Source of the DNA: Burkholderiaceae bacterium
Lineage (GTDB): Bacteria > Pseudomonadota > Gammaproteobacteria > Burkholderiales > Burkholderiaceae
Direction: 5' to 3'
Assembly: GCA_947374315.1 (NCBI GenBank)
Contig: CANCBK010000016.1
Span: 1-28,980 of the forward strand
Length of the DNA stretch: 28,980 nucleotides
Below the pieces are notes generated by a model. It was given only the letters and a program-made list of their open reading frames with translations. It had not been told where the DNA came from and did no database searches. Within the stretch, counting starts at the first letter, position 1; the number at the start of each line of letters is the position of its first letter. Position numbers and translations under genes: made by a program. Shown here one piece after another: positions 3,309 to 28,980 of this stretch.

Positions 3309-5774
3309 ATGAAAATTCCTACCCTAAGCTCAGGCTTCAAAACCCTCTTTAAGGGCATCTTTTGGTTTGGATCGGCCGTCATTGTCTTGATCGTCGTCAC
3401 TGGAATCATCTATTTACTGTCAGCCCATACCAACCTCTCTGGAAAACGCGTCATTAAAAGCCTGGGGGATTCCGTCGTCGTGACTTTTGACGAAAGCGAT
3501 GTCCCTCATATTCAAGCCAAAACCTCTTCAGATGCGCTCTTTGCTTTGGGCTACTTACACGCGAGCGAGCGCTCCTGGCAAATGGAAATTAATCGTCGCC
3601 TGGCTAGTGGACGACTCTCTGAAATCCTAGGAAAAGAAACGGTTTCGATTGATCGCTTTATTCGTACTTTGGGCATTAAGCATGCTGCCGAAAATCAATT
3701 TGATCGTTATCCCATTGCTACCAAGAGATTGCTCCAATCCTATGCGGATGGTGTAAACGCTGGTAACGCACACTTAGGCTGGGCACTCCCCATTGAATAT
3801 TTTCTAACGGGATCCAAACCAGGGCATTGGTCACCGAGCGATAGCGTCGCCTGGATGTTGATGATGGCCTTAGATCTTGGTGGTAACTGGGATAAAGAAT
3901 TGCAACGTCTTGAACTGTCGCAATTTTTAACGACTAAGCAAGTTTGGGAAATCATGCCCGCATACGACCCTGGGGAGCCGGTGAGCAATGCGGATTTCTC
4001 TAAGATGTATCACGACATCAATGTCTTTAATCCCCATCCACTCGCGAGGGATGCAAAATCCAAAAAACTCCCGGCAACAGAATTAGCGATCAATGAAGTG
4101 CCCGGCGGCAAAGATGGCATTGGCTCAAATAACTGGGCGCTCAATGGCAAGCTCACGACATCTGGCAAGCCCTTGCTTGCCAACGACCCTCACCTCGGCC
4201 TGTCTGCCCCTGCGATTTGGTACTTTGCCCACCTTGAAGCTCCTGGTTTGAATGTGATTGGCGCCACCCTACCCGGCATTCCCGCCGTAGCGCTGGGACG
4301 GACCGATAAGTTTGCCTGGAGTTTTACGAACACCAATCCAGATGTCCAAGATTTATATATTGAACAACTAGATCCTAAAAATCCCGGGGTCTACCGCGGC
4401 CCAGAAGGATCATTACCGTTTAAGGTTCGCCAAGAAATAATCGACATTAAAGGAGAACCCCCCTTACGTTTTTTAGTTAAAGAAACACGTCATGGTCCCG
4501 TGATTTCTGAATCATATGCACGCGCAAAAAGGGTAATTGATACCGATCGTTTTGCCTTGGCGCTACGCTGGACAGCCCTAGATGTTGAAAATCAATCTGT
4601 TGCTGGATTGATTGAAATGAATCATGCAAAAGATCTAGACACCTTTAAGCAAGCATTGCGGAAAAATTATGCGCCAATGCAAAACGTCGTCATGGCGGAT
4701 GTCGAGGGAAATATTGCCTATCAAGCGGCCGGGGTTGCGCCCAAGCGCACCTTGCACCAAGGTCTTTATGGGGTCGCGCCCGCCATAGGCTGGGAGAAGC
4801 AGTATGACTGGACCGGCTATGTACCATTCGAGCAACTGCCTAGTAGCAATAACCCAGACTCCAATTGGATTGCCACAGCCAACCAAAAGATACTAGCTAG
4901 CAATGATCCCAATCCATTAACGGGCGACTGGGATCTGCCGACCCGCTATGACCGAATTGTGGAGTTGATTAAAGCTAAACCAAGCCATGATCTCGCCTCC
5001 ATGAAATCCATGCAGGCTGATACCCTCTCTTTGGGGGCGACACCATTATTAGCGATATTTAAAGCTTCGCAATCAACACACCCATTAGCCCAGCAAGCCA
5101 TAGAGTTAAGTAAGCACTTTGATGGCGACATGAAAGCAGACAGTGCTGGCGCTTTGATTTTTAACGCTTGGGTTGACCAGCTGACTCGAAAACTGTTTTC
5201 TCGCTTAGGCTATTTGTTTACAGAAAATTATGGGGCACGTAACTTTAGAAACCCCCTCATATTGCAATTACAAAACCCAAACAGCCCCTGGTGTGACGAC
5301 CCCAAGACCGCACAGGTCGAGTCGTGTGCAGATGCTTCGAACGTCGCATTTGGTGATGCACTTGAACAGTTGAGTGCGCAATTTGGAAACAGTCCCAAGA
5401 ATTGGGCATGGGGAAATGCGCATATCGCCGTCTCTGAGCACCGCCCACTGAGCAAGGTTCCACTGCTAGGTAGCATCTTTAATCTATCCCAGCCATTCCC
5501 GGGGGATAGCTTCAGCATCAACGTTGGCCGACTAGAGCTACTGAGGGCTGATAACCCTTTCGAGACCAAGCAAGCGCCTAGCCTTCGGACGCTATATGAC
5601 TTATCTGATTTAGAGCAGTCCCTCTTTATTTATCAAACCGGCCAGTCTGGCTGGGTTCAAAGTAAGTTCTACCGCAATATGAGTGGGCTCTGGGCTGAAA
5701 ACGCATATCTCCCCCTGCAAATGAAGCCTGGGAAGATCGACAGGCAACTCGATCTCAATATTAAGGAAAGATAG
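3309..5774 (+). CDS. Penicillin acylase family protein (N-terminal nucleophile hydrolase)
   Basis: Member of the penicillin G acylase / acyl-homoserine-lactone acylase family, which cleaves amide-linked acyl groups and matures by autoproteolysis. It is 821 residues long, normal for a full precursor. One hydrophobic helix at about residues 16-38 (IFWFGSAVIVLIVVTGIIYL) acts as membrane anchor or uncleaved signal. The alpha chain follows to about residue 272. The beta chain should begin at Ser273 in GIGSNNWAL, the expected nucleophile after cleavage of the Gly-Ser bond. LTSGKPLLANDPHLGLSAP, typical of the family, comes just after. It is monocistronic by appearance. The natural substrate (antibiotic side chain, AHL signal or other amide) cannot be read from sequence. 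Confidence 0.9.
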   Translation: MKIPTLSSGFKTLFKGIFWFGSAVIVLIVVTGIIYLLSAHTNLSGKRVIKSLGDSVVVTFDESDVPHIQAKTSSDALFALGYLHASERSWQMEINRRLASGRLSEILGKETVSIDRFIRTLGIKHAAENQFDRYPIATKRLLQSYADGVNAGNAHLGWALPIEYFLTGSKPGHWSPSDSVAWMLMMALDLGGNWDKELQRLELSQFLTTKQVWEIMPAYDPGEPVSNADFSKMYHDINVFNPHPLARDAKSKKLPATELAINEVPGGKDGIGSNNWALNGKLTTSGKPLLANDPHLGLSAPAIWYFAHLEAPGLNVIGATLPGIPAVALGRTDKFAWSFTNTNPDVQDLYIEQLDPKNPGVYRGPEGSLPFKVRQEIIDIKGEPPLRFLVKETRHGPVISESYARAKRVIDTDRFALALRWTALDVENQSVAGLIEMNHAKDLDTFKQALRKNYAPMQNVVMADVEGNIAYQAAGVAPKRTLHQGLYGVAPAIGWEKQYDWTGYVPFEQLPSSNNPDSNWIATANQKILASNDPNPLTGDWDLPTRYDRIVELIKAKPSHDLASMKSMQADTLSLGATPLLAIFKASQSTHPLAQQAIELSKHFDGDMKADSAGALIFNAWVDQLTRKLFSRLGYLFTENYGARNFRNPLILQLQNPNSPWCDDPKTAQVESCADASNVAFGDALEQLSAQFGNSPKNWAWGNAHIAVSEHRPLSKVPLLGSIFNLSQPFPGDSFSINVGRLELLRADNPFETKQAPSLRTLYDLSDLEQSLFIYQTGQSGWVQSKFYRNMSGLWAENAYLPLQMKPGKIDRQLDLNIKER

Positions 5775-5849
5775 AGTCGGTAGAGCGAGTTAAAATGCCA
5801 TTGGAACGCTTTATTTGGAAATAACCCTTTATTCAATACGCTACGCACC

Positions 5850-6257
5850 ATGAAAAAAATACAAGTACTCGCGGTTTTCATTTCCCTTTGCACTCTTCCC
5901 GTGGCAAATAGTTTTGCCGCCTGGAAAGAGCTGGGCTCCAATGAGCAAATGGTAGTTTATGTGGATATCGACACGATCAGCGATGTTGGCGAAAAAGCCC
6001 AGATCATGTCGATGCTCGACCTCAAGAAACCCGGCGTTAATCCAAAAACAAAACAGCCCGTAAGCTCCATCATCGGATTAAATGAATATAACTGCCCTGC
6101 GATGACCTACCGTCCGATTGCATATAAAGAATTTTCCGGCAGCAAAGGAAGCGGTAAAGTGGTTTCAGATAACAAGACCCCGAATAGTGAATTCGAGCCT
6201 GTCGTGAGCGAATCTTGGACTGCTGGAGTATTTAACGTTGTCTGCAAACGCAAATAA
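5850..6257 (+). CDS. Surface-adhesin E-like secreted protein
   Basis: A 135-residue exported protein. The signal peptide is MKKIQVLAVFISLCTLPVANSFA, with cleavage predicted after about residue 23. The mature part begins AAWKELGSNEQMVVYVDIDT and has two cysteines (in EYNCPAM and NVVCKRK). The pattern W-x5-S-(x)n-YVD-x-(x)n-DL followed by a late Cys resembles the small adhesin-E / surface-adhesin family common in betaproteobacteria. That assignment is from memory of the family style. A strong intrinsic terminator follows 26 bases after the stop, so transcription ends here. Confidence 0.65.
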   Translation: MKKIQVLAVFISLCTLPVANSFAAWKELGSNEQMVVYVDIDTISDVGEKAQIMSMLDLKKPGVNPKTKQPVSSIIGLNEYNCPAMTYRPIAYKEFSGSKGSGKVVSDNKTPNSEFEPVVSESWTAGVFNVVCKRK

Positions 6258-6283
6258 ACAGATTCTCTTGGCAGCCCCACAAG

Positions 6284-6318
6284 GCAGATCAAATCTTTCG
6301 GTTTGGTCTGCTTTTTTT
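6284..6318 (+). terminator. Strong intrinsic terminator
   Basis: A 12-bp stem (GCAGATCAAATC with GGTTTGGTCTGC, including two G-U pairs) closes on a TTTC loop and is followed at once by seven T residues (6312-6318). It should terminate the adhesin-E-like gene. The next ATG (6319) begins on the base directly after the T-run. Confidence 0.85.
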
Positions 6319-6681
6319 ATGGGCACTCGCCTTACCCTTTGGGCCCTCATTCTTGGATGCTTTACAACTGGCTGTGCAGCGCCCCTGCTGGCCTTCAGTA
6401 GCTCTACTACTGCCGCTGCCAGCTCTGCAGGCACCGCAGCGACCTCGATAGCAATAGCCAATCCCACTACTGCGGCAAGCCTGCTTTCGACTGCCACCAC
6501 TGGTAAATCACCGCTGGAACACGCCGCTTCGGCAGCAACCAAACAGGATTGCAACTTCCTCAATGCTTTGGGGCCCAAGCCCATTTGCATGGATATTCCC
6601 ATTCCCCAAGTTACCGACCTCAGCGAGCCATATCCAGGACTGGCCGATGCCATCAGCGTCCCAGGGGCCAAGGCGCAGTAA
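6319..6681 (+). CDS. Putative small lipoprotein
   Basis: From the ATG at 6319 this encodes 120 residues: a short basic start (MGTR), a hydrophobic segment, then two candidate lipobox cysteines (LILGC and TTGC). A long Ala/Ser/Thr-rich tract follows, and a C-terminal part containing KQDCNFLNALGPKPICMDIP. No known domain is recognised. The frame also extends upstream to a TTG at 6238, but those codons cross the terminator hairpin and the previous gene, so I prefer 6319. No Shine-Dalgarno sequence can be present in the T-run before this ATG, which makes translation from here unusual. The composition fits an outer-membrane lipoprotein, but the start, and to some degree the gene itself, are uncertain. 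Confidence 0.55.
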   Translation: MGTRLTLWALILGCFTTGCAAPLLAFSSSTTAAASSAGTAATSIAIANPTTAASLLSTATTGKSPLEHAASAATKQDCNFLNALGPKPICMDIPIPQVTDLSEPYPGLADAISVPGAKAQ

Positions 6682-6772
6682 TCCGTCCATCGACCCCACC
6701 TCGCTTTGCCGCATTTTTCGCCATGCAGTCTAAAATTAGGGCTTATCAGCACTCTTTTTAGATATCGAAACC

Positions 6773-7627
6773 ATGACCACAGAAAATTACTACCTCACGC
6801 TCACTTGCCCTAACCGTCCCGGCATTGTTGCCGCCGTATCAACCTACATCTTTGAACTGGGTGGTGATATTGAAGAAGCGCAGCAATTCGATGACAAAGC
6901 CTCTAAGCGCTTCTTTATGCGCGTGAGCTTTAGCTGTAACGCAGATGCCAAGGCACTCAAAGCAGGCTTTGTGGAGATTGCGAAACGCTTTGATCTCACT
7001 TGGGATCTGCGTGCTGTAAAAGAATTCAAACGTGTCTTGATCATGGCTTCTAAGCTGGATCACTGCTTGGTCGACCTACTCTATCGCTGGCGCATTGGTG
7101 AATTGCCAATGATCATTAGCGGTATTGTCTCTAATCATCCACGCGAAGTGTATTCCAGCATTGATTTTGCGGATATTCCGTTTTACCACCTGCCAGTCAC
7201 CGCTGATACCAAGCCGGCGCAAGAAGCAAAGTTACTCGAGATTGTGGCTGACTCAAAAGTCGACATGGTGATCTTGGCTCGCTATATGCAAATTCTCTCG
7301 GACGATTTATCCACCAAGCTATCGGGACGTTGCATTAACGTTCACCACTCTTTCTTACCGAGCTTCAAGGGCGCCAAACCATATCATCAAGCACATGCCC
7401 GCGGCATTAAGTTGATTGGTGCCACCGCACACTTTGTCACGAGCGACTTGGATGAAGGCCCCATCATTGAGCAAGACGTTACCCGCGTTACCCATGGCGA
7501 TACTCCAGAAGACTTGGTGCGCAAAGGTCGTGATTTAGAGCGCACCGTGCTGTCTCGCGCCCTACGTTATTACTTGCATGACCGTGTGCTGATTAACGGC
7601 GCTACTTCAGTCGTTTTCTCAGACTAA
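6773..7627 (+). CDS. purU: Formyltetrahydrofolate deformylase
   Basis: Hydrolyses 10-formyltetrahydrofolate to formate and tetrahydrofolate, balancing the one-carbon pool and feeding formate to PurT-type purine synthesis. It has 284 residues, the usual length. An N-terminal ACT regulatory domain (about 5-85) begins [17 protein letters not shown]. The C-terminal formyl-transferase domain (about 90-280) contains [20 protein letters not shown] and [14 protein letters not shown]. These give the catalytic triad Asn189, His191 and Asp227. The gene is convergent with the soxA-like gene, with only eight bases between the stops. Confidence 0.95.
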
Positions 7628-7635
7628 ACGCAACT

Positions 7636-8412
7636 TTAAGGTCGGACCCCTGGACTTTCCAGGGGCATTCCCCTGGCTCGCCACATTAAAAACAGCTCTA
7701 GCTGAGCCATTTCAGTAGAGCCATACTCAAACTGCTTGGCTCGCACTCCACTCATGCAATTACGCAATCGTCTTTGCAAAGATCCCATGGTTTGCCATTC
7801 AATTCGGTAAATGGGATAGGCAGTTGGGTGCCCCTGAGGAATCAAGCTACCACCCAACTTCAAACCAGCGCGAGCTTCATGACATTGTGCGCACGATAAA
7901 TTGAGCTGCCCCATTCTTTCATTAAAGAACTTCCGCCCTTGCTCTAGGTCTTTGGAGTTTTGGAGCGTTGCTTTGATTGCGATAGGCATCCCTTTGGATT
8001 GGGTTGCTACAAAACTGGTTAAAGCCAAGAGCGACTTACTTTCATAAGCTAGTGCGGGCGCCTCTTGCTTGGTGGATCGACATTGATTAATTTGTCCCTC
8101 TAGGGTTTGTAATTTCCCTTTAATAACTTTGGGATATTGGGTGGCAACACCAACCATGCTCTGACCGGAGTCACCATGACAAGATGCGCAGGACACATTC
8201 TTTTGCCCCGCCTTCTCTTTCCAAAGAGTGTGGCCATCCATCACCCAAAACAGAGCGGGATTTAAATGGGGGTCGTCTTGCATGGCTTGATTCTCCAGCG
8301 TCATCAATTGATAACTGGATTGCCGGGAATCTTGTTGCGCAAAACTTGAACTAGTGCCAATCAAAATAAGCAAAAGGCAAAAGTAGGGAATACAGAATGC
8401 AGGGAGTTTCAC
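7636..8412 (-). CDS. soxA: SoxA-like diheme c-type cytochrome
   Basis: SoxA with SoxX forms the heterodimeric cytochrome that, in classical sulfur oxidation, joins a sulfur substrate to the SoxY carrier. The protein has 258 residues with a signal peptide (PAFCIPYFCLLLILIGTSSS). It carries two heme c sites, C75-ASCH79 and C174-AQCH178. A third cysteine, C219 in RNCMSGVRA, matches the cysteine (persulfide in known SoxA) that ligates the active-site heme. The C-terminus LELFLMWRARGMPLESPGVR is typical of SoxA. It starts at GTG 8412, which overlaps the soxZ stop by four bases (GTGA). It is the last gene of the minus-strand unit starting at 12421. Key SoxA residues are intact, so it should be catalytically competent. 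Confidence 0.88.
   Translation of the reverse strand: MKLPAFCIPYFCLLLILIGTSSSFAQQDSRQSSYQLMTLENQAMQDDPHLNPALFWVMDGHTLWKEKAGQKNVSCASCHGDSGQSMVGVATQYPKVIKGKLQTLEGQINQCRSTKQEAPALAYESKSLLALTSFVATQSKGMPIAIKATLQNSKDLEQGRKFFNERMGQLNLSCAQCHEARAGLKLGGSLIPQGHPTAYPIYRIEWQTMGSLQRRLRNCMSGVRAKQFEYGSTEMAQLELFLMWRARGMPLESPGVRP
7647..7665. other. Perfect short hairpin at the purU/soxA junction
   Basis: CCCCTGGA and TCCAGGGG form an 8-bp perfect stem with a 3-base loop, inside the last codons of the soxA-like gene and 20 bases after purU. The right arm can also pair with a following CCCCT (AGGGGcattCCCCT), giving two competing stems. No T-run follows on either strand, so a canonical intrinsic terminator is not supported. 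Confidence 0.45.
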
Positions 8413-8738
8413 GAGACAGTAATTTGCGCTTGACTCACTGCTTCATACCCATCATCGCCCACCCACCTACACTCAATCGTGCCAGAGGCAACTGCAATGG
8501 CGTTAAAAATAATGAGGGGGTTCGCCCCAATCCCTGGATAGAAGTCCGCCCTAAAAACTTCTTCACCGTTATAAAGGCAAGTAAACAAGCGAATGATGTC
8601 TCGAGGGATCCGCTTACCATCTTCCGAATAGCGAAAGCCTGTTTCCATGTCATGCTGGGCAATGGCCCGAATTTCAATGATGGCATCTTTTTTTGCTTGG
8701 ACGGGCACCGTAATATTAGTGCGAGAAGTTTTACTCAT
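8409..8738 (-). CDS. soxZ: SoxZ-like carrier subunit
   Basis: SoxZ is the immunoglobulin-like partner of SoxY; it has no signal of its own and is exported in complex with Tat-targeted SoxY. From ATG 8738 it encodes 109 residues with typical SoxZ features: AIIEIRAIAQHDMETGFRYS near the N-terminus, FTCLYNGEEVFRADFYPGIG in the middle, and a C-terminal ECRWVGDDGYEAVSQAQI. I chose 8738 because a GGAG lies five bases upstream and the ATG overlaps the soxY stop (ATGA); an in-frame ATG at 8753 lacks these features. Its own stop overlaps the soxA GTG by four bases. The tight overlaps indicate stoichiometric co-translation. Confidence 0.9.
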   Translation of the reverse strand: MSKTSRTNITVPVQAKKDAIIEIRAIAQHDMETGFRYSEDGKRIPRDIIRLFTCLYNGEEVFRADFYPGIGANPLIIFNAIAVASGTIECRWVGDDGYEAVSQAQITVS

Positions 8739-9226
8739 ACCAACTCCGTACAAGCCGATAGCGTCACTAGGGTATCAGCATGGCCTTGCCAGAAACTGCC
8801 ATCACTCATTTGAGCAATCGCCCATACCCTCTGAGAGTCCGCCAATCGAACGCGGGTTGTCAGTTCAGCGCGTCCAGAACGGGGGGTGAAATACGCGCTA
8901 AAAATATTCGGGAGTGGATTACCCTCGGCAATCACATGAACCGCTTTGACATAATCATTCGCGGTCATGGGGCTTTGGATGGAAACCTTTAGCACCACTA
9001 AGTTTCCACTCTCGACTAGGGGAGGAATGATGAGCTTAACCCGCTCATCTTGAATGGGGTTTGAGCCCACAATCTTGGCTATTGCCTCCATCGCCTCGGG
9101 CTTTTTAGCCATCACCAGCAATGGCGCCATCCAGCTGGATAAACCCAAAAGCCCCAGTGCCGATAAATACATCCGGCGACGTAGGCTTAGAGGCATGGAA
9201 TTGAGGTTTAACGATGTCATAGTCAT
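8735..9226 (-). CDS. SoxY-like carrier protein without the GGCGG arm
   Basis: The SoxY fold is recognisable over 163 residues: a twin-arginine-like signal (SLRRRMYLSALGLLGLSSW), then VKLIIPPLVESGNLVVLKVS and a C-terminal half with RVWAIAQMSDGSFW. In true SoxY the chain ends in a flexible GGCGG arm whose cysteine carries the sulfur substrate. Here it ends LVTLSACTELV: a cysteine is kept (Cys159), but the flanking glycines are gone and four residues follow. From memory, a class of SoxY paralogues with an AACIE-type arm has been described, and SACTE fits it. I therefore annotate it as SoxY-related rather than true SoxY. It lies 17 bases after the soxX-like stop and overlaps soxZ. Confidence 0.82.
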   Translation of the reverse strand: MTMTSLNLNSMPLSLRRRMYLSALGLLGLSSWMAPLLVMAKKPEAMEAIAKIVGSNPIQDERVKLIIPPLVESGNLVVLKVSIQSPMTANDYVKAVHVIAEGNPLPNIFSAYFTPRSGRAELTTRVRLADSQRVWAIAQMSDGSFWQGHADTLVTLSACTELV

Positions 9227-9243
9227 TTAGTAAATCTATTTAC

Positions 9244-9693
9244 TCATTGAACAGTGTTGACCTTAAGACTAAACAAGAACGCCAGTACATCTTCTATCTC
9301 TTGGCCACTCAAGATCGTTTGATCAACAAATTTGGGCGCTACGCGATTCAACCCCGTAGTACGGTAATAGGCTGGCATGATCGTATCAGGATTAAAGCGG
9401 CTAGGATCCACAATATGGGCTCGGAGTTGCGCTGTAGATAAGCGTCCCACACTGAGTCCTAAGTCTGGCGCCAAATTACCCTGAAAGCGCTCCTCCGGAA
9501 AAGGCCCGCTGTGGCATAAGAGACATAGACCCGTTTGGCGACTTCCCACAATAGCGCGCCCTCTAGCAATATCCCCAGGAGCTGAAGTGAGGGGATCCAC
9601 AATTGAATCCCCTATCCAAGTTTGCGCATAGACCGAATAAGAGGGCAAAAGAGTCGACATACCTAGCAATACCACCACTAGTGCGCTTCTCAT
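9244..9693 (-). CDS. soxX: SoxX-like monoheme c-type cytochrome
   Basis: Partner of SoxA, accepting electrons from the SoxA active site. The signal peptide is MRSALVVVLLGMSTLLPSYS. There is one heme c site, GLCLLCHSGPFPEERFQG. Downstream, PSRFNPDTIMPAYYRTTG supplies the distal methionine ligand in the expected SoxX context. LSGQEIEDVLAFLFSL forms the C-terminal helix. I prefer ATG 9693 as start, although GTG 9699 is possible two codons upstream; neither has a strong ribosome binding site. It begins 52 bases after the stop of the molybdopterin subunit and lies 17 bases before soxY, so it links the molybdenum hydroxylase genes to the soxYZA genes. Confidence 0.87.
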   Translation of the reverse strand: MRSALVVVLLGMSTLLPSYSVYAQTWIGDSIVDPLTSAPGDIARGRAIVGSRQTGLCLLCHSGPFPEERFQGNLAPDLGLSVGRLSTAQLRAHIVDPSRFNPDTIMPAYYRTTGLNRVAPKFVDQTILSGQEIEDVLAFLFSLKVNTVQ

Positions 9694-9745
9694 TCCCACT
9701 TATTCATAACCCATTGCAAACCGTCCAGCCTCTTTATCGCTGCAC

Positions 9746-11962
9746 TTAAACCAACTTAATGCCACTATTTTTCAATGGCACCGTACGGTACCGCTTACCA
9801 GTTGCACGATAGATCGCATTGAGCACCGCTGGCGCTGCCACTGCAATCGTTGGCTCACCAACCCCGCCCCAGTCCTTACCGCCACCTTGAATGATGATGG
9901 TTTCGACCTTAGGCATTTGCGCAAGGCGAATAGAGTTGAAGGTATCAAAGTTCTTCTGCACAACTGCACCGTGCTCAAGCGTGATTTCTTCTTCGAAAAG
10001 AGCGGATAAGCCGTACACAAAGGATCCCGAAACCTGACGAGCTACTTGTGCGGGATTCACCACATAACCCGGATCCGTTGCTGCGACGATGCGATGAATT
10101 TTGACCTCATTGCCATTGGTCACCGATAACTCGCAAGCAGCCGCCACATAACTACCGAATGAGCGCATCTGCGCGATACCGCGGAAGACGCCTGGCTTAG
10201 CGGGCGTAGTCCAACCAATGCCCTCAGCTACCGCATTGAGTACTGCCACGGCACGAGGGTAGTTTTGCATATGCTGACGACGGAACTCCACTGCATCAAC
10301 ACCCGTTGCCTCGGCCATCTCATCCACAAAGGTTTCGAGGAAGACCGCATTTTGGTTCACGTTCACGCCACGCCAAAATCCCGGTGGAACATGGGTATTA
10401 CGCATCGCATGATCAACCATTAAATTCGGGAAGCTATACGTGATGCCATGCTCCGTAGTGTCATCCAGACCTTGAAACGTCAAAGGATCTTTACCTTTAT
10501 TAGCTGCCAACACCGCTGGACGTACTGATGCCAAAATAGATTGGCCTGATAAACGCATACTCAGACCAGTAATATTTTTCTTGTCATCAATCGCCGCAGT
10601 CAATTTACACATCATTACCGGGTGATAGCGACCCTGAGTCATATCTTCTGAGCGCGTCCAAATTAATTTGATTGGGGTGCCCGGCATTTGCTTGGCGATA
10701 TTCACTGCTTGGGTTGTGTAATCCTGGAATGCACCACGACGACCAAAGCCACCGCCTAGATTCACCTTATAGACATTACATTTTTCCGCCGGCAATCCTG
10801 AGGCTGCAATCACAGCGGCCAAAGATGCCTCACCGTCTTGAGTGGGAACCCATGCTTCACAAGCATCAGCAGTCCACTTGGCGGTCGCCGTCTGAGGCTC
10901 TAAAGTGGCATGGTTCAAGAATGGATAAAAATATGTTGCTTCAATAGTTTTGGATGCCTTAGAAATCGCCTCGCTGGCATCGCCATTGGCGTTACCAACA
11001 AACGCATCGTCAGCTGTCAAACCCGCTTCCAACATCTTCTTAATAGATGCACTGGAAACATTACCATTGGCGCCGTTGTCCCAAACAATGCTGACAGCTT
11101 CCATACCCATTTTGGCTTGCCAGAAGGTATCCGCCACCACCGCTACAGCAGAATCACCGACCTGCACTACCTTCTTTACACCCTTCATACCAGCAGCTTT
11201 AGAGGCATCGTAGCTCTTAACCTTGCCACCAAATACTGGGCACTCCTGAATAGTGGCAATCAACATGCCAGGTAATTTCAGGTCAATGGCATAGATCTGC
11301 TTACCACTGACTTTGTCCGCAACGCCATCAATGCGGTTTACTGGCTTTCCAATCAAAGTCCACTCTTTAGGATCTTTGAGAGGGATTTCTTTAGGGGTCT
11401 CTAGCTGTGATGCCGCTACAGAAACTTTTCCGAAAGTGGTTGTGCGACCCGATGGGGTATGCGTAATTACACTGTCTTTGGCAACGCATTCTGATGCAGG
11501 CACATTCCACTGATTGGCTGCCGCCTGAATCAACATGATGCGAGCGGCTGCGCCACCCTTACGAACATATTGCTCAGAGGTCCGAATGCCACGACTTCCG
11601 CCAGTGGAATAACTACCCCAAGCTTGTTTGCGCTTCAGACTCTCGGCTGGAGATGGGTATTCGTAAGAAACTTTCTTCCAGTCACACTGCAATTCTTCAG
11701 CAACCATTTGCGCCAAACCAGTGATCGTTCCTTGACCCATTTCAGAGCGCACGATACGCACGACCACATCATCGTTTGGCTTTACTACCACCCAAACACC
11801 AATTTCTGGCGTTGCTAGCGGAGTCATTGAGGTGGCGCCACTCCCCATTGCGGCATTGGCCGCAGAAATAAAAGAGAAATCAAAGCCAATGGCTAGGCCA
11901 GCGCCAATAGCACTTGCGCCAACTACAAAGTGACGACGGGATGCATTAATAGTATTTGTCAT
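9746..11962 (-). CDS. Molybdopterin-binding subunit of an IorB-type molybdenum hydroxylase
   Basis: Large subunit of the xanthine dehydrogenase family, in the isoquinoline 1-oxidoreductase / aldehyde dehydrogenase branch; such enzymes hydroxylate heteroaromatic rings or oxidise aldehydes with water as oxygen donor. It has 738 residues. A twin-arginine signal is present (SRRHFVVGASAIGAGLAIGF), so the enzyme is exported folded to the periplasm. Molybdopterin-contact motifs include MGQGTITGLAQMVAEEL, GGGFGRRGAFQDY, PPGFWRGVNVNQNA and the C-terminal GGVGEPTIAVAAP, in which Glu703 is the expected catalytic base. It starts nine bases after the 2Fe-2S subunit. The substrate is not predictable; 'isoquinoline' should not be taken literally. 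Confidence 0.9.
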   Translation of the reverse strand: MTNTINASRRHFVVGASAIGAGLAIGFDFSFISAANAAMGSGATSMTPLATPEIGVWVVVKPNDDVVVRIVRSEMGQGTITGLAQMVAEELQCDWKKVSYEYPSPAESLKRKQAWGSYSTGGSRGIRTSEQYVRKGGAAARIMLIQAAANQWNVPASECVAKDSVITHTPSGRTTTFGKVSVAASQLETPKEIPLKDPKEWTLIGKPVNRIDGVADKVSGKQIYAIDLKLPGMLIATIQECPVFGGKVKSYDASKAAGMKGVKKVVQVGDSAVAVVADTFWQAKMGMEAVSIVWDNGANGNVSSASIKKMLEAGLTADDAFVGNANGDASEAISKASKTIEATYFYPFLNHATLEPQTATAKWTADACEAWVPTQDGEASLAAVIAASGLPAEKCNVYKVNLGGGFGRRGAFQDYTTQAVNIAKQMPGTPIKLIWTRSEDMTQGRYHPVMMCKLTAAIDDKKNITGLSMRLSGQSILASVRPAVLAANKGKDPLTFQGLDDTTEHGITYSFPNLMVDHAMRNTHVPPGFWRGVNVNQNAVFLETFVDEMAEATGVDAVEFRRQHMQNYPRAVAVLNAVAEGIGWTTPAKPGVFRGIAQMRSFGSYVAAACELSVTNGNEVKIHRIVAATDPGYVVNPAQVARQVSGSFVYGLSALFEEEITLEHGAVVQKNFDTFNSIRLAQMPKVETIIIQGGGKDWGGVGEPTIAVAAPAVLNAIYRATGKRYRTVPLKNSGIKLV

Positions 11963-11971
11963 GATCGCTCC

Positions 11972-12421
11972 TTATGCCTTACTCACAGCATGAATAGCAT
12001 CACGCACTTGTTGGAATGTTCCGCAACGGCAGATATTTGTCACCGCCGCATCAATCTGCTCATCAGTCGGTTTTGGGGTGTTGCGCAGCAAGGCAGTGGT
12101 CGCCATCACCATGCCAGATTGGCAGTAACCACACTGAGGCACTTGATTATCAACCCAGGCTTTTTGTACTTTGGAGAGCTGGCCATTTTTTTCCAAGCTC
12201 TCAATAGTTTCAATCTTCTTGCCCTCTGCAGCACTCACCGGAAGCGAGCAGCTTCGCATAGCCTGGCCTTCAAAGAGGATTGTGCAAGCTCCACATTGGC
12301 CGATGCCGCATCCGTACTTGGTACCAGTTAATCCTACATGGTCACGAATTACCCACAACAAAGGGGTTTCTGGATCTACATCCACCTTGTACTTTTTACC
12401 GTTGATATTTAAGTCGGCCAT
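11972..12421 (-). CDS. 2Fe-2S subunit of the IorA-type molybdenum hydroxylase
   Basis: Small electron-transfer subunit of the same molybdenum hydroxylase. It has 149 residues. A plant-type [2Fe-2S] domain comes first (Cys38, Cys43, Cys46, Cys58 in YGCGIGQCGACTILF...RSC). An all-helical second [2Fe-2S] domain follows (Cys97, Cys100, Cys131, Cys133 in QCGYCQSGM and NICRCGT). It has no signal of its own and is presumably exported with its Tat-bearing partner. A good ribosome binding site (GAGGAGAG) precedes the ATG. This is the first gene of the minus-strand unit that continues through the molybdopterin subunit to soxX, soxY, soxZ and soxA. No FAD subunit gene is present, as is usual for IorAB-type enzymes, which pass electrons to cytochromes. 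Confidence 0.92.
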   Translation of the reverse strand: MADLNINGKKYKVDVDPETPLLWVIRDHVGLTGTKYGCGIGQCGACTILFEGQAMRSCSLPVSAAEGKKIETIESLEKNGQLSKVQKAWVDNQVPQCGYCQSGMVMATTALLRNTPKPTDEQIDAAVTNICRCGTFQQVRDAIHAVSKA

Positions 12422-16492: not shown

Positions 16493-17818
16493 TTAGCTGG
16501 GCAAGCAGTTCAAATAAAAACGCTTGACCTCTTGATCGCAGCTCACATCCTTCGGTTGTATAGGTCGCTCTAGAGTGATGCCTTCAATGGAGGTGCAACG
16601 ACTGAGGGCTACATAGACTTGTCCTGAGGCAAAGGCCCCTGATGAGAGATCAACCTTAATCTTGTCCAGCGTCTTGCCTTGGCTCTTATGAATGGTGACG
16701 GCCCAAGCCAACATTAAAGGAATCTGCACAAAGGTACCAATCACGTTTGGTGAGATTCTGCCAGACATCATGTCGTGGTCATAGCGATAGGACTCCCACT
16801 GGTGCCCTTTTACTTCAACCGTATTCGAGTATGGTCCGTTTTGCAGCAACACCTTAACGGTATTGGGCAGCAACTCGCGCACTACCCCAATCGTACCGTT
16901 CACCCAACGCTTCGGAAAATTACTATCCGTAGCCGTAAACATCACCTTAGCGCCGACCTTCAGCGTCAGATGGTTGGGGGATGGCAAATTGCGATCATCC
17001 ACATTGAACTTACCAGTACTATTGCCTGTGTAAATCTTGGCATCTGTAGTTAAGGCGCGTAAGCCTGCATGATTGATTTGGTCAGCCCGAGCATTGGTTG
17101 TGGTGAGCGTGATTGTTTGCTCATCAGCCTCTTTTTTTGTTTCATAACAAATAGCATTGAGCGTATCGAGCGCCTCATCGATATCTTGATTGATGCGAAT
17201 CTGATTAAGCAAGCCCGCAAAGTGCGCATCCTTCTGACGGAAGATCTTGGATAGCTCCACCATCGTCACATCTTTACGATGGAGCGCCATAGCGCAGAAG
17301 AAATAAGGACCTTCATAGCCACGATCACCTAGGACCTGCATATCGGCACTAGAGACCACTGGTGGCAACTGAAATAAGTCCCCTACAAACATTACCTGAA
17401 TACCGCCGAATGGCTGGGTCTTGTGTGGGCCATTAGCACGCAAGAATAAATCCATGGCATCCACTACATCCGCCCTCACCATCGAGATCTCGTCAATGAT
17501 AAGTAAGCGAATATCTTTATAGAGACGCTTATCTTTTAATGGCTTGATATCCTCTTCGGGGAAGATCAGACGTGGCGGCAAGCGAAAGAAGGAGTGAATA
17601 GTGACACCCTTCACTTGTAATGCAGCTACACCGGTTGGCGCCACCACAACCACATTGCCGGGAATATGTTCACGTAAATAACCAATCAGAGTGGTCTTAC
17701 CAGTACCGGCCTTACCACTAACGAAGATATAGGGATCGTGACGCTCAATAGCGTCAATGACCGCCTGGTATTCAGGGGTGATTTCAATTTCGGGGGAGTT
17801 CACTGTTGGGCTAGTCAT
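16493..17818 (-). CDS. PIF1/RecD-like DNA helicase
   Basis: Superfamily 1B helicase of 441 residues, expected to unwind DNA 5' to 3'. Motif I (Walker A) is GKAGTGKTT with Lys41. Motif II (Walker B) is LLIIDEIS with Asp109-Glu110. Motif III is MFVGDLFQLPPV. The C-terminal motifs VTIHKSQGKTLDKIKVDL and GQVYVALSRCTSIEGI are typical of PIF1-like and RecD2-like proteins. There is no N-terminal RecD extension, so it is a minimal-core, PIF1-like enzyme. It appears monocistronic. A role in replication or repair of G-rich or structured DNA is known for the family but inferred here. Confidence 0.87.
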   Translation of the reverse strand: MTSPTVNSPEIEITPEYQAVIDAIERHDPYIFVSGKAGTGKTTLIGYLREHIPGNVVVVAPTGVAALQVKGVTIHSFFRLPPRLIFPEEDIKPLKDKRLYKDIRLLIIDEISMVRADVVDAMDLFLRANGPHKTQPFGGIQVMFVGDLFQLPPVVSSADMQVLGDRGYEGPYFFCAMALHRKDVTMVELSKIFRQKDAHFAGLLNQIRINQDIDEALDTLNAICYETKKEADEQTITLTTTNARADQINHAGLRALTTDAKIYTGNSTGKFNVDDRNLPSPNHLTLKVGAKVMFTATDSNFPKRWVNGTIGVVRELLPNTVKVLLQNGPYSNTVEVKGHQWESYRYDHDMMSGRISPNVIGTFVQIPLMLAWAVTIHKSQGKTLDKIKVDLSSGAFASGQVYVALSRCTSIEGITLERPIQPKDVSCDQEVKRFYLNCLPS

Positions 17819-26679: not shown

Positions 26680-26773
26680 CCATCGGAGTTTCCAGTTATT
26701 AATTGTTCATTCGCCTCTAATATGCTAAGTTGGAACATGCAACGGATCTTCGCAAAATAGGTTAGCCTTGAAT

Positions 26774-28980
26774 ATGGACAAAATCCAGAAAAAACATGCT
26801 CAGTTTGATTTCGTCATTATTGGTGGTGGGGTTGCCGGAGCTACCGCAGCTGAGACACTCAGAATTGAGGGATCAAAAGCTAGCATCCTTATCTTATCGA
26901 ATGAGAAGCACCTTCCTTATCAACGCGCCATCCTGTCTAAAAAGTACATTGCTAGCAAGCAGGACATCAGCACGACGCCAGTACTAACCCAAAAAGAATA
27001 TGAGAAGCTAGATATTCACATTGAATTTGATAGGCATGTAACGCATATTGATTACGCCCGCAAAGTCATTAGGATCAGCAATCATGCTGATATTGAATTT
27101 AAGAAATTGCTGATTGCTACAGGCGCCTCCCCCATGCAATTAGAAGTTCCAGGGGTTGGCCTAGAGGGAGTTCACTATCTCAGAACGATCGATGATGCTT
27201 TGGCAATCAAACAAAATTCCAACCACTCGAAAAGAGTAGTGATTGTTGGAGGAAGTTACCTCGCGTTGGAGATTGCCGCTTCACTCTCAAAATTAGGGCT
27301 ACACGTTACGATGCTCACGCGTGACGGACTGTTGGATAAGCTAGATTCTCCTGACATATCCCATTTTTTTGAATCCTTTTATAAAAAACACCATATTGAA
27401 ATCATCTTTGATGATGAGCCAATCGCCCTACTGGGAAGTAAGCGAGTCAAGAGAGTAAAGACCAAGGGCAATCGCGATATTGACTGCGACATGGTCGTCA
27501 TCGCAATAGGCGTGACCCCAAATATTGATTTCTTAAGGGGTAGCGGAATACAAACTGATGACGGCATCTTGGTGGACAAGCACCTTAAAACCAACAAGCC
27601 TAATATCTTCGCTGCTGGTGATGTGGCCAATGTTTATGATCCTATTTTTAATATTCGACAACGTGTAGAGCATTGGGATAATGCAGTGCGGCAAGGCAGA
27701 GTAGCTGCACAAAACATGCTAGGCAATAAGAAATCGTTTGACGAGGTGCCCTACTTCTATTCTCATGTATTCAATCTCAGCTTCAATTTATTGGGATTAA
27801 TCGAGCCCAACCAGGTTCGCATTACACGCGGATCGATGGAGGAAGGATCATTCGCCTGCTTTTATGTATCCAAGGATGTCATACAAGCGCTATTTACATT
27901 TGGGCGCCCTAGCGAAGAATTAAAAGTAGTTGAGAATTTAATCAAGCATCAAGTGAATATTTCAGCCATTAGGGATAAGCTATCTGACCCCCACTTTTCC
28001 CTGAACGAAATTCCCAATCAAACCATCTACATCCTTCAGGGTGGTGGTGCTTTGGGAAGCTTTGAGTGCGGAGCAATTCAGGCGCTATCTGAAAAAAATA
28101 TTACTCCAGATATTGTGGCTGGAGTGTCTATTGGCGCCTTTAATGGTGCGATTATTGCTGGGAACCCCAATGATCCCGCTAAAGCACTGCTCTCCTTCTG
28201 GGGTGAAATTATGTCTAACCCACCTCCAGCCGCAAACGAGCAGATGCGCCACATTCTCGCGAATGAACAAGCGGCAATGTTTGGGGTCAATAACTTCTTT
28301 CAGCCACGCTGGCTCACTCCACCCATGAATCTATCTCAGATGCCAATGAATTGGTCGAGCTTTTATGATTTTTCACCAGTAAAAAGTCTACTTGAAAAAT
28401 ATGTAGATTTTGACAAACTCCACTTAAGCCCAATTCGACTTCTCATCAGCGCTGTCAATATCCAAACAGGAGAAATGACGATTTTTGATAGTCATAGCGA
28501 AAAGATAACAGTCGATCACATCATCGCTAGCGGTAGCCTACCCCCCATGTTTCCCTGGACAACGATTAATGGCAAGCACTATTGGGACGGAGGCATTCTG
28601 AGCAATTCTCCACTAGAAACTGTTGTGGAGCGCTGCGGCTCAGCAGGAAAACAGATCTATGTCATCGATCTATTCCCAGGCAAAAGGAGTAATCTACCCC
28701 AAAGCCTTCCCGAGGTCATGGCGCGCAGGGATGAAATTCAATTCTCAGAGCGCATCCGCAGTGATTTGAAGACCAGCAAACTCATCGTTGAATTTAAGAA
28801 ATTGGTCAACGATATAGCAGCCGAACTACCGGATGATGTACTTGAGCAGATGTATCACGAACCTCGATACATTCAAATGATGGGGGAAGAAACCCCGATG
28901 AAGATCATCCGGATTACTAGAGAAACGACCCCTGACGAAACAACATCAGGGGCTTATGATTTTTCAGAAAAATCGATTCA
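26774..28980 (+). CDS. Ferredoxin-reductase-type FAD oxidoreductase fused to a patatin-like phospholipase (3' partial)
   Basis: One uninterrupted frame runs from ATG 26774 off the window end (735 codons, no stop). Residues about 11-400 resemble ferredoxin/rubredoxin reductases. They have an FAD loop IIGGGVAGATAAE (Gly17, Gly19, Gly22), HLPYQRAILSKKYI, a second Rossmann segment VVIVGGSYLALE and the FAD motif NIFAAGDVA (Asp283). HWDNAVRQGRVAAQNML follows. Residues from about 420 form a patatin domain: oxyanion loop QGGGALGSFECGA (422-434), nucleophile elbow GVSIG (Ser452) and DGG (Asp605), so the Ser-Asp dyad is intact. The tail (MARRDEIQFSERIRSDLKTS) resembles the DUF3734 region of some patatins. 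In the NAD loop two conserved glycines are replaced (Ser161, Ala164). The architecture suggests a membrane-lipid hydrolase coupled to a redox module; the substrate is unknown. Confidence 0.88.
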   Translation, partial: MDKIQKKHAQFDFVIIGGGVAGATAAETLRIEGSKASILILSNEKHLPYQRAILSKKYIASKQDISTTPVLTQKEYEKLDIHIEFDRHVTHIDYARKVIRISNHADIEFKKLLIATGASPMQLEVPGVGLEGVHYLRTIDDALAIKQNSNHSKRVVIVGGSYLALEIAASLSKLGLHVTMLTRDGLLDKLDSPDISHFFESFYKKHHIEIIFDDEPIALLGSKRVKRVKTKGNRDIDCDMVVIAIGVTPNIDFLRGSGIQTDDGILVDKHLKTNKPNIFAAGDVANVYDPIFNIRQRVEHWDNAVRQGRVAAQNMLGNKKSFDEVPYFYSHVFNLSFNLLGLIEPNQVRITRGSMEEGSFACFYVSKDVIQALFTFGRPSEELKVVENLIKHQVNISAIRDKLSDPHFSLNEIPNQTIYILQGGGALGSFECGAIQALSEKNITPDIVAGVSIGAFNGAIIAGNPNDPAKALLSFWGEIMSNPPPAANEQMRHILANEQAAMFGVNNFFQPRWLTPPMNLSQMPMNWSSFYDFSPVKSLLEKYVDFDKLHLSPIRLLISAVNIQTGEMTIFDSHSEKITVDHIIASGSLPPMFPWTTINGKHYWDGGILSNSPLETVVERCGSAGKQIYVIDLFPGKRSNLPQSLPEVMARRDEIQFSERIRSDLKTSKLIVEFKKLVNDIAAELPDDVLEQMYHEPRYIQMMGEETPMKIIRITRETTPDETTSGAYDFSEKSI

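Follow-up and report, generated by a model that had tools for sequence, protein, structure and literature searches.

A SoxYZ-type carrier with an AACIE arm is linked to a xanthine oxidase-family molybdenum hydroxylase in a conserved six-gene row of a Burkholderiaceae bacterium and its relatives

The gene row considered here lies in a stretch of 28,980 nucleotides from a Burkholderiaceae bacterium (contig CANCBK010000016.1 of assembly GCA_947374315.1, positions 1 to 28,980; this whole stretch is called the window), whose best relatives are Polynucleobacter-like. On the minus strand, the row encodes the iron-sulfur (2Fe-2S; FeS) subunit and the molybdopterin subunit (Mo subunit) of a molybdenum (Mo) hydroxylase, followed by SoxX, a SoxY-like carrier, SoxZ, and SoxA. 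Sequence comparison gives good support to the view that the six genes form one joint, inherited, and conserved module, which would consist of an exported two-subunit Mo hydroxylase of the xanthine oxidase (XO) family, its own AACIE-arm SoxYZ carrier, and a SoxAX loader. The favoured reading of the role of the module, which we put forward tentatively, is that the thiol carrier, once loaded by SoxAX, offers its bound thiol or organosulfur group to the Mo hydroxylase. An earlier note on this DNA had named the same six genes, as the reading frames and family profiles bear out, and had proposed a joint SoxAX/SoxYZ/Mo pathway; linkage upholds the joint system, the substrate-carrier part of the proposal is the one we tentatively favour, and the part in which SoxAX is a plain electron acceptor fares poorly.

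The type of arm at the C terminus of SoxY goes together with the enzyme encoded beside it. In a phylum-wide sample of 398 genomes, 32 had a match at an E value of 1e-30 or better and 15 scored above the cut-off; 20 of 35 places were fetched, the rest being five of the Polynucleobacter type and ten lower-scoring ones. The Mo enzyme adjoined all 15 non-GGCGG carriers, none of which had SoxB for a neighbour, and SoxB adjoined all five GGCGG carriers, none of which had the Mo enzyme alongside. Five more GGCGG arms occurred at places represented by short loci. In Indioceanicola, a GGCGG SoxY lies beside SoxB, with no Mo enzyme in the stretch examined. A flavocytochrome c sulfide dehydrogenase, assigned to its family on three plasmid copies, accompanied 14 of the 15 non-GGCGG loci. 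The module also occurs on alphaproteobacterial plasmids (Neorhizobium galegae, Methylobacterium sp. NMS14P, and Roseomonas marmotae), together with the flavocytochrome and, where seen, a small cytochrome; the Mo frame is split in the N. galegae copy, and the Roseomonas SoxY scores 155.2 against TIGR04487, below the cut-off of 172.

A census of all fetched loci of at least 6 kb (131 SoxY frames in 130 loci; loci and genomes are cited by L and G numbers) gave the same division within 4 kb of the carrier. The Mo enzyme was present for 103 of 112 non-GGC[GAS] arms and SoxB for none, and the GGC-type arms, among which the GGCSG of L281 was counted, had SoxB in 11 of 19 cases and the Mo enzyme in none. 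The nine non-GGC frames lacking the Mo enzyme are L023, L037 (a contig end), L040, L124 (a broken copy), L167, L174, L270, L272, and L273. The census includes many close kin, at least two places fetched twice (L121/L046 and L122/L045), and loci picked by similarity, and the split in the phylum sample is the cleaner test of arm against partner. GGCG-like arms with no SoxB within 4 kb were also observed in L275, L276, L277, and L283 (GGCGVS, GGCGT, GGCGE, and GGCAG, respectively).

Among near relatives, scanning genome contigs with a SoxY alignment yielded 47 loci, of which 44 could be judged, the contig end being too near the carrier in L025, L032, and L037. The Mo gene directly precedes SoxX-Y-Z-A on one strand in 42 of these 44, and the FeS gene precedes the Mo gene wherever the contig reaches (it is broken in L008, cut in L007, and beyond the contig in L021). 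In Polynucleobacter loci, the outer neighbours LrgAB, purU, and a penicillin-amidase gene are largely kept too, and the linkage there is therefore weak evidence when taken alone. The flanks of L044 to L047 (a Sheuella, a Comamonadaceae metagenome-assembled genome, and two others) differ from those of the Polynucleobacter loci, and only the six genes are common to these loci and L001, or to one another, by blastp (TctC-type receptors and antisense frames excepted). The six-gene order thus exceeds chance, because it is kept in distant relatives. An order-wide sample of 399 genomes contained 67 with a match at 1e-30 or better; 40 loci from 40 genomes were fetched, 7 already-known genomes and 20 others being set aside, and the Mo gene lay beside the carrier in 38 of the 40 (divergent in two, L190 and L192). 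Consistent unlinkage in homologous clusters, which the earlier note had named as evidence against a joint system, was not what the near relatives, the order sample, or the non-GGCGG loci of the phylum sample displayed.

Of the Sox parts of the module, SoxYZ varies least. Within the sequence covered, 15 of the 40 order-sample loci have SoxYZ without SoxX or SoxA beside the enzyme (L193 could not be scored for SoxAX, since its contig ends inside SoxZ). Complete absence of SoxAX from this type is ruled out, as SoxA is encoded elsewhere in all 15 genomes, and SoxAX seems able to serve the carrier from a distance. In fifteen stretches around distant SoxA genes, from 11 of these genomes, a second carrier row was seen without the Mo gene in L270, L272, and L273 and with it in L271; SoxY in the remainder was mostly of the GGC type (L274 and L279 were not resolved). 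The arms in L270, L272, and L273 are of the TACLDA kind and accompany SoxA, with neither the Mo enzyme nor SoxB within 4 kb, and in each of these genomes the Mo enzyme occurs elsewhere with SoxYZ only. The 78 proteins encoded around the SoxYZ-only type did not point consistently to any substrate (6 Peripla_BP_6, 4 NHL, and 3 TctC).

A family sample of 398 genomes gave a similar picture within what is largely one clade. TIGR04487 scored above the cut-off in 44 genomes and narrowly missed it in G340; in G315 and G275 the protein was split into two pieces. A Mo orthologue of at least 73% identity was present in 45 of the 398 genomes, every one of which has the carrier, and in 45 of the 47 carrier genomes, the exceptions being G010 and G355 (a decayed copy with a remnant). 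These figures do not amount to 45 independent events, as all 44 genomes above the cut-off have sizes of 1.7 to 2.4 Mb, the Polynucleobacter range. Two further lines of argument from this sample were rejected. A 48 to 52% paralogue in G010 and G011, which have no cis Mo gene, is no evidence of substitution, since 25 of the 47 genomes have it as well. Joint decay of the module in G275, G315, G379, and G355 is matched by breakage of flanking genes; G379 and G355 have an intact purU and a broken penicillin-amidase-like gene. In L123 to L126, the module and some neighbours are broken together in genomes of generally decayed look. The protein distance matrices of the six genes agree (r of 0.62 to 0.87, with 0 of 500 permutations as high), which, with no species-tree control, shows no more than shared inheritance and was not accepted as proof of joint function.

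The residues expected to matter for chemistry are conserved in alignment rows picked by profile score. The haem cysteines of SoxA, its ligand Cys219, and Cys111 are kept in 39 of 39 relatives, the CxxCH and Met of SoxX in 40 of 40, and the SoxY-like Cys in 56 of 56; the Mo-subunit Glu is invariant in 71 of 71, and the cluster cysteine columns of the FeS subunit are kept in 69 to 71 of 71. Invariance of the SoxA and SoxY cysteines indicates selection on thiol loading. When 69 Mo subunits were put in a quick tree, drawn open with a midpoint root, all the linked ones fell within a single set of 56 rows that also takes in four unlinked ones (Shimodaira-Hasegawa-like approximate likelihood ratio test, SH-aLRT, 97). 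The SoxYZ-only type falls into two groups in this tree, ten deep and four nested.

Features of the six-gene row in the window, with family scores and cut-offs
Feature	Position	Strand	Evidence
[2Fe-2S] subunit of Mo hydroxylase, 149 aa, 8 cluster cysteines	11972..12421	-	Fer2 and Fer2_2 above cut-off
Molybdopterin subunit, 738 aa, XO family	9746..11962	-	MoCoBD_1 and MoCoBD_2 above cut-off
Mo-SoxX junction, 46 or 52 bases depending on SoxX start	9700..9745	-	
SoxX, mono-haem cytochrome c (CLLCH, Met108)	9244..9699	-	TIGR04485, 67.8 (cut-off 61)
SoxY-like carrier, AACIE-arm family	8735..9226	-	TIGR04487, 192.6 (cut-off 172)
SoxZ, carrier partner, 109 aa from ATG 8738	8409..8738	-	PF08770, 74.8 (cut-off 25)
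SoxA, di-haem cytochrome c, GTG start	7636..8412	-	TIGR04484, 226.2 (cut-off 110)

The spacing of the row given in the earlier note was confirmed. The gaps are 9 bases between the FeS and Mo genes, 52 before SoxX if it starts at the ATG at 9693 (46 with the GTG at 9699), and 17 between SoxX and SoxY, and the 4-base overlaps are ATGA for SoxY/SoxZ and GTGA for SoxZ/SoxA. A longer TTG-start frame of SoxZ extends to 8753; the protein scores 69.8 against TIGR04490, below the cut-off of 76. Both the Mo subunit (SRRHF) and the SoxY-like protein (RRRMYLS) have a twin-arginine motif at the N terminus. By Pfam, the Mo subunit matches MoCoBD only, with a sub-threshold Ald_Xan_dh_C domain, and its closest solved chain by sequence is 8gy3_C, an aldehyde dehydrogenase large subunit (E value of 1.2e-71). 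The Glu703 of its GxGE motif, encoded at 9854-9856, matches the catalytic Glu of XO-family enzymes. Cys159 of the SoxY-like protein (8750-8752) lies in the C terminus LSACTELV, and this protein scores 81.9 against the GGCGG-SoxY model TIGR04488, below the cut-off of 125. SoxA aligns with the di-haem SoxA 1h31_A (4.9e-39), with Cys219 (7756-7758) and Cys111 both matched.

The earlier note would have read a transcription start and a terminator between the Mo gene and soxX as evidence against a joint system. A consensus scan found no promoter-like site at 9700-9745, nor one before the FeS gene (2 found in the region against 6.2 expected). One weak terminator-like stem of 3 G-C pairs lies at the end of the Mo gene (9782-9758, minus strand), and such stems are within chance numbers in the region (4 found against 5.6 expected). 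Shuffled sequences fold as well as 9680-9760 does (z of -0.64).

The absence of soxB and soxCD from the window, as previously noted, was confirmed by a Pfam scan of 20 further frames, which covered the long presumed genes and returned other families or none. A complete second sox cluster had been suggested as something to look for, and relatives gave a divided answer: SoxB was found in 41 of 53 carrier genomes and was absent at 1e-100 in 12, figures that have no phylum background rate for comparison. Among the 53 are G809 and G723, in which no Mo gene lies in cis; G785 and G796 were not counted. SoxB scored above the cut-off in eight of the first nine carrier genomes; the ninth, Sheuella, has a single SoxY match. 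Since SoxB occurs in many of these genomes and not in all, the module often shares a genome with the thiosulfate pathway without needing it. XdhC (PF02625) was present in all 25 carrier genomes scanned, so the Mo enzyme is probably of the sulfido kind, and replacement of XdhC by SoxYZ is ruled out. In G008, an XdhC-family frame (L121, 13138-14088) is convergent with the row and directly follows SoxA.

From these features we infer a path that begins with export of the enzyme and its complex formation with the carrier. SoxAX would join a substrate with a thiol or sulfane group to Cys159 of SoxY through a disulfide, and the C-terminal arm, which is not the SoxB-associated GGCGG, would present it to the Mo site. 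The carrier-bound substrate would be hydroxylated there, and electrons would exit via the 2Fe-2S clusters to a cytochrome c. Where it lies in the same row, flavocytochrome c sulfide dehydrogenase may handle sulfide or reactivate the carrier. The lack of an adjoining SoxB and of a GGCGG arm suggests that the thiosulfate cycle is probably not the next step, and the constancy of the Mo partner makes the Mo enzyme the probable destination of the arm.

Several observations weigh against this path. SoxXYZA occurs without the Mo and FeS genes in L023 and L040 and without an adjoining Mo gene in L167 and L174, and the Sox rows of L270, L272 (at least SoxYZA), and L273 likewise have no Mo gene adjoining. 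The linked Mo subunits showed no residue of their own: 17 columns distinguish them from distant relatives, but 13 of these are identical in all four of the nearest unlinked subunits, and these columns therefore mark the clade and not the linkage. In G061, a second FeS-Mo pair (L128, 6439-9096), about 80% and 72 to 73% identical, stands without sox genes among frames for an S1/P1 nuclease, a GDA1/CD39 phosphatase, a nucleoside hydrolase, and a sub-threshold adenosine deaminase, and this nucleotide-salvage setting suggests that free N-heterocycles, and not carrier-bound thiols, may be the substrates. Action on a protein-bound substrate is, moreover, not known to us for any enzyme of the XO family.

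The next most probable account, which we regard as possible and distinctly less likely than presentation of a substrate, is that SoxYZ, sulfane-loaded by SoxAX or the flavocytochrome, restores or protects the sulfido ligand of the Mo site after export. XO-family enzymes require this ligand, which is inserted with the help of XdhC in the cytoplasm (PMC10609526, in part), and the presence of XdhC in every carrier genome scanned agrees with a need for it. The account would explain why the carrier accompanies the enzyme yet does not stand beside SoxB, and a SoxYZ-like carrier accompanies pyrroloquinoline quinone (PQQ) alcohol dehydrogenases, where disulfide or cofactor protection has been proposed (PMC12997753, in part). 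Moreover, all 23 family-sample genomes with a 48 to 50% FeS-Mo paralogue also have the AACIE carrier, so that the carrier may follow the enzyme clade and not one neighbourhood; these counts represent a single bacterial clade, and possession of the carrier was the reason for choosing the genomes of L118, L119, L195, and L196. This paralogue is not beside sox genes in L118, L119/L120, L195, and L196; in L118 (7114-9847) and its kin it stands beside SBP_bac_11, ferric-reductase-like, and cupredoxin-like (under cut-off) genes. In L194 (G009, 5008-9824), a divergent SoxXYZA with the arm ATACSDET converges on a Mo enzyme of the paralogue clade. Against ligand upkeep, the cytoplasm already has XdhC for this task (PMC10609526, in part), SoxAX with a sulfide dehydrogenase is heavy machinery for ligand maintenance, the 13 more distant FeS-Mo pairs (L197 to L209) all lack SoxY alongside, and a search for a Cys peculiar to the linked Mo subunits found none that is invariant.

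Two other readings are unlikely, to about the same degree. One casts the Mo enzyme as a replacement for SoxCD that would oxidise carrier-bound inorganic sulfane sulfur. The carrier, SoxAX, and the flavocytochrome all belong to sulfur oxidation, and SoxB shares most of the carrier genomes. SoxCD is a sulfite oxidase-family Mo enzyme, however, and the present one belongs by Pfam to the XO family; SoxB, which is needed for the release of sulfate, is beside none of the non-GGC carriers, is missing from a dozen carrier genomes (SoxCD itself was not searched there), and is not above the cut-off in Sheuella, and the arm lacks GGCGG. The other reading makes SoxAX a mere electron acceptor for the hydroxylase and SoxYZ a passenger. 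The usual electron acceptor of IorAB-type enzymes is a cytochrome of the c type, and among the six proteins a CxxCH motif occurs in SoxX and SoxA alone. It is SoxYZ and not SoxAX, however, that the SoxYZ-only loci keep beside the enzyme, the opposite of what this reading predicts, and the ligand Cys of SoxA and the Cys of SoxY are invariant. Least of all, and with very little probability, could the row consist of ordinary thiosulfate or sulfide oxidation genes that stand by chance beside an unrelated hydroxylase. Of three SOX clusters shown in one paper, the one made up of four Polynucleobacter genes, Pnuc_1154-1157, is given a role in inorganic sulfur oxidation (PMC3308952, Fig. 7 legend); the main text of that paper, in the part available, contains neither 'molybdopterin' nor 'isoquinoline'. 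These four are presumably SoxXYZA genes of the present kind. The unbroken linkage in the phylum sample and the change of partner with arm type argue against chance.

The window SoxY is by score a member of TIGR04487, the SoxY-related AACIE arm protein, and public records already name its kin so. That family was defined on SoxY alone, and here it has a Mo-hydroxylase partner too. Searches of an open-access library gave no description of such a partner, subscription papers being mostly outside that scope, and the available parts of PMC12815253, PMC5894208, PMC2864759, PMC2907700, and PMC11747546 do not describe the pairing either. The classical SoxXA-SoxYZ-SoxB(-SoxCD) system has in common with the module SoxAX and SoxYZ with their catalytic residues, including the SoxA ligand Cys; it differs in that no SoxB or SoxCD adjoins here, the arm is not GGCGG, and the Mo enzyme is of another family. 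AldFGH-type aldehyde dehydrogenase (8gy3) shares the 2Fe-2S subunit, the Mo subunit, and the twin-arginine motif and has its own cytochrome subunit. IorAB and PaoABC are exported XO-family enzymes, and, unlike such enzymes, the present row has no haem or flavin adenine dinucleotide subunit of its own, with SoxYZ and SoxAX instead. A SoxYZ-like carrier of TIGR04557 (PP_2677, ped cluster) lies beside a periplasmic dehydrogenase system, its role being unknown according to the parts available (PMC12997753, PMC11582611). In that quinoprotein dehydrogenase-associated family, SoxY and SoxZ are fused and the enzyme uses PQQ, whereas here they are separate genes, which score 56.0 and 23.5 against a cut-off of 140. 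In SAR324, a flavocytochrome c is flanked by SoxY and SoxZ in an incomplete sox set (PMC4782131, in part); the likeness lies in the flavocytochrome beside such a set, and the part of that paper available names no Mo hydroxylase next to it.

Elsewhere in the window, a plus-strand frame at 26768-28978 that runs off the end combines a Pyr_redox_2/Reductase_C oxidoreductase with a patatin-like phospholipase, and a PIF1-like helicase is encoded on the minus strand at 16493-17818.

A named SoxY subfamily thus apparently has an enzyme partner that has so far gone undescribed. What are presumably SoxXYZA genes of the AACIE kind have previously been taken as evidence of inorganic sulfur oxidation in a Polynucleobacter (PMC3308952, in part), and such conclusions may be misleading for this freshwater genus and the other sampled Proteobacteria if the enzyme that a SoxYZ serves can be read from its arm motif. 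The PQQ dehydrogenases being the first case, the module would be a second link between a SoxYZ-type carrier and a periplasmic oxidoreductase, and it raises the question of whether such a carrier presents substrates to a Mo hydroxylase or keeps it alive. The pairing is kept in many relatives, apart from the usual sulfur-oxidation genes, and may point to a little-studied chemistry outside the cell membrane.

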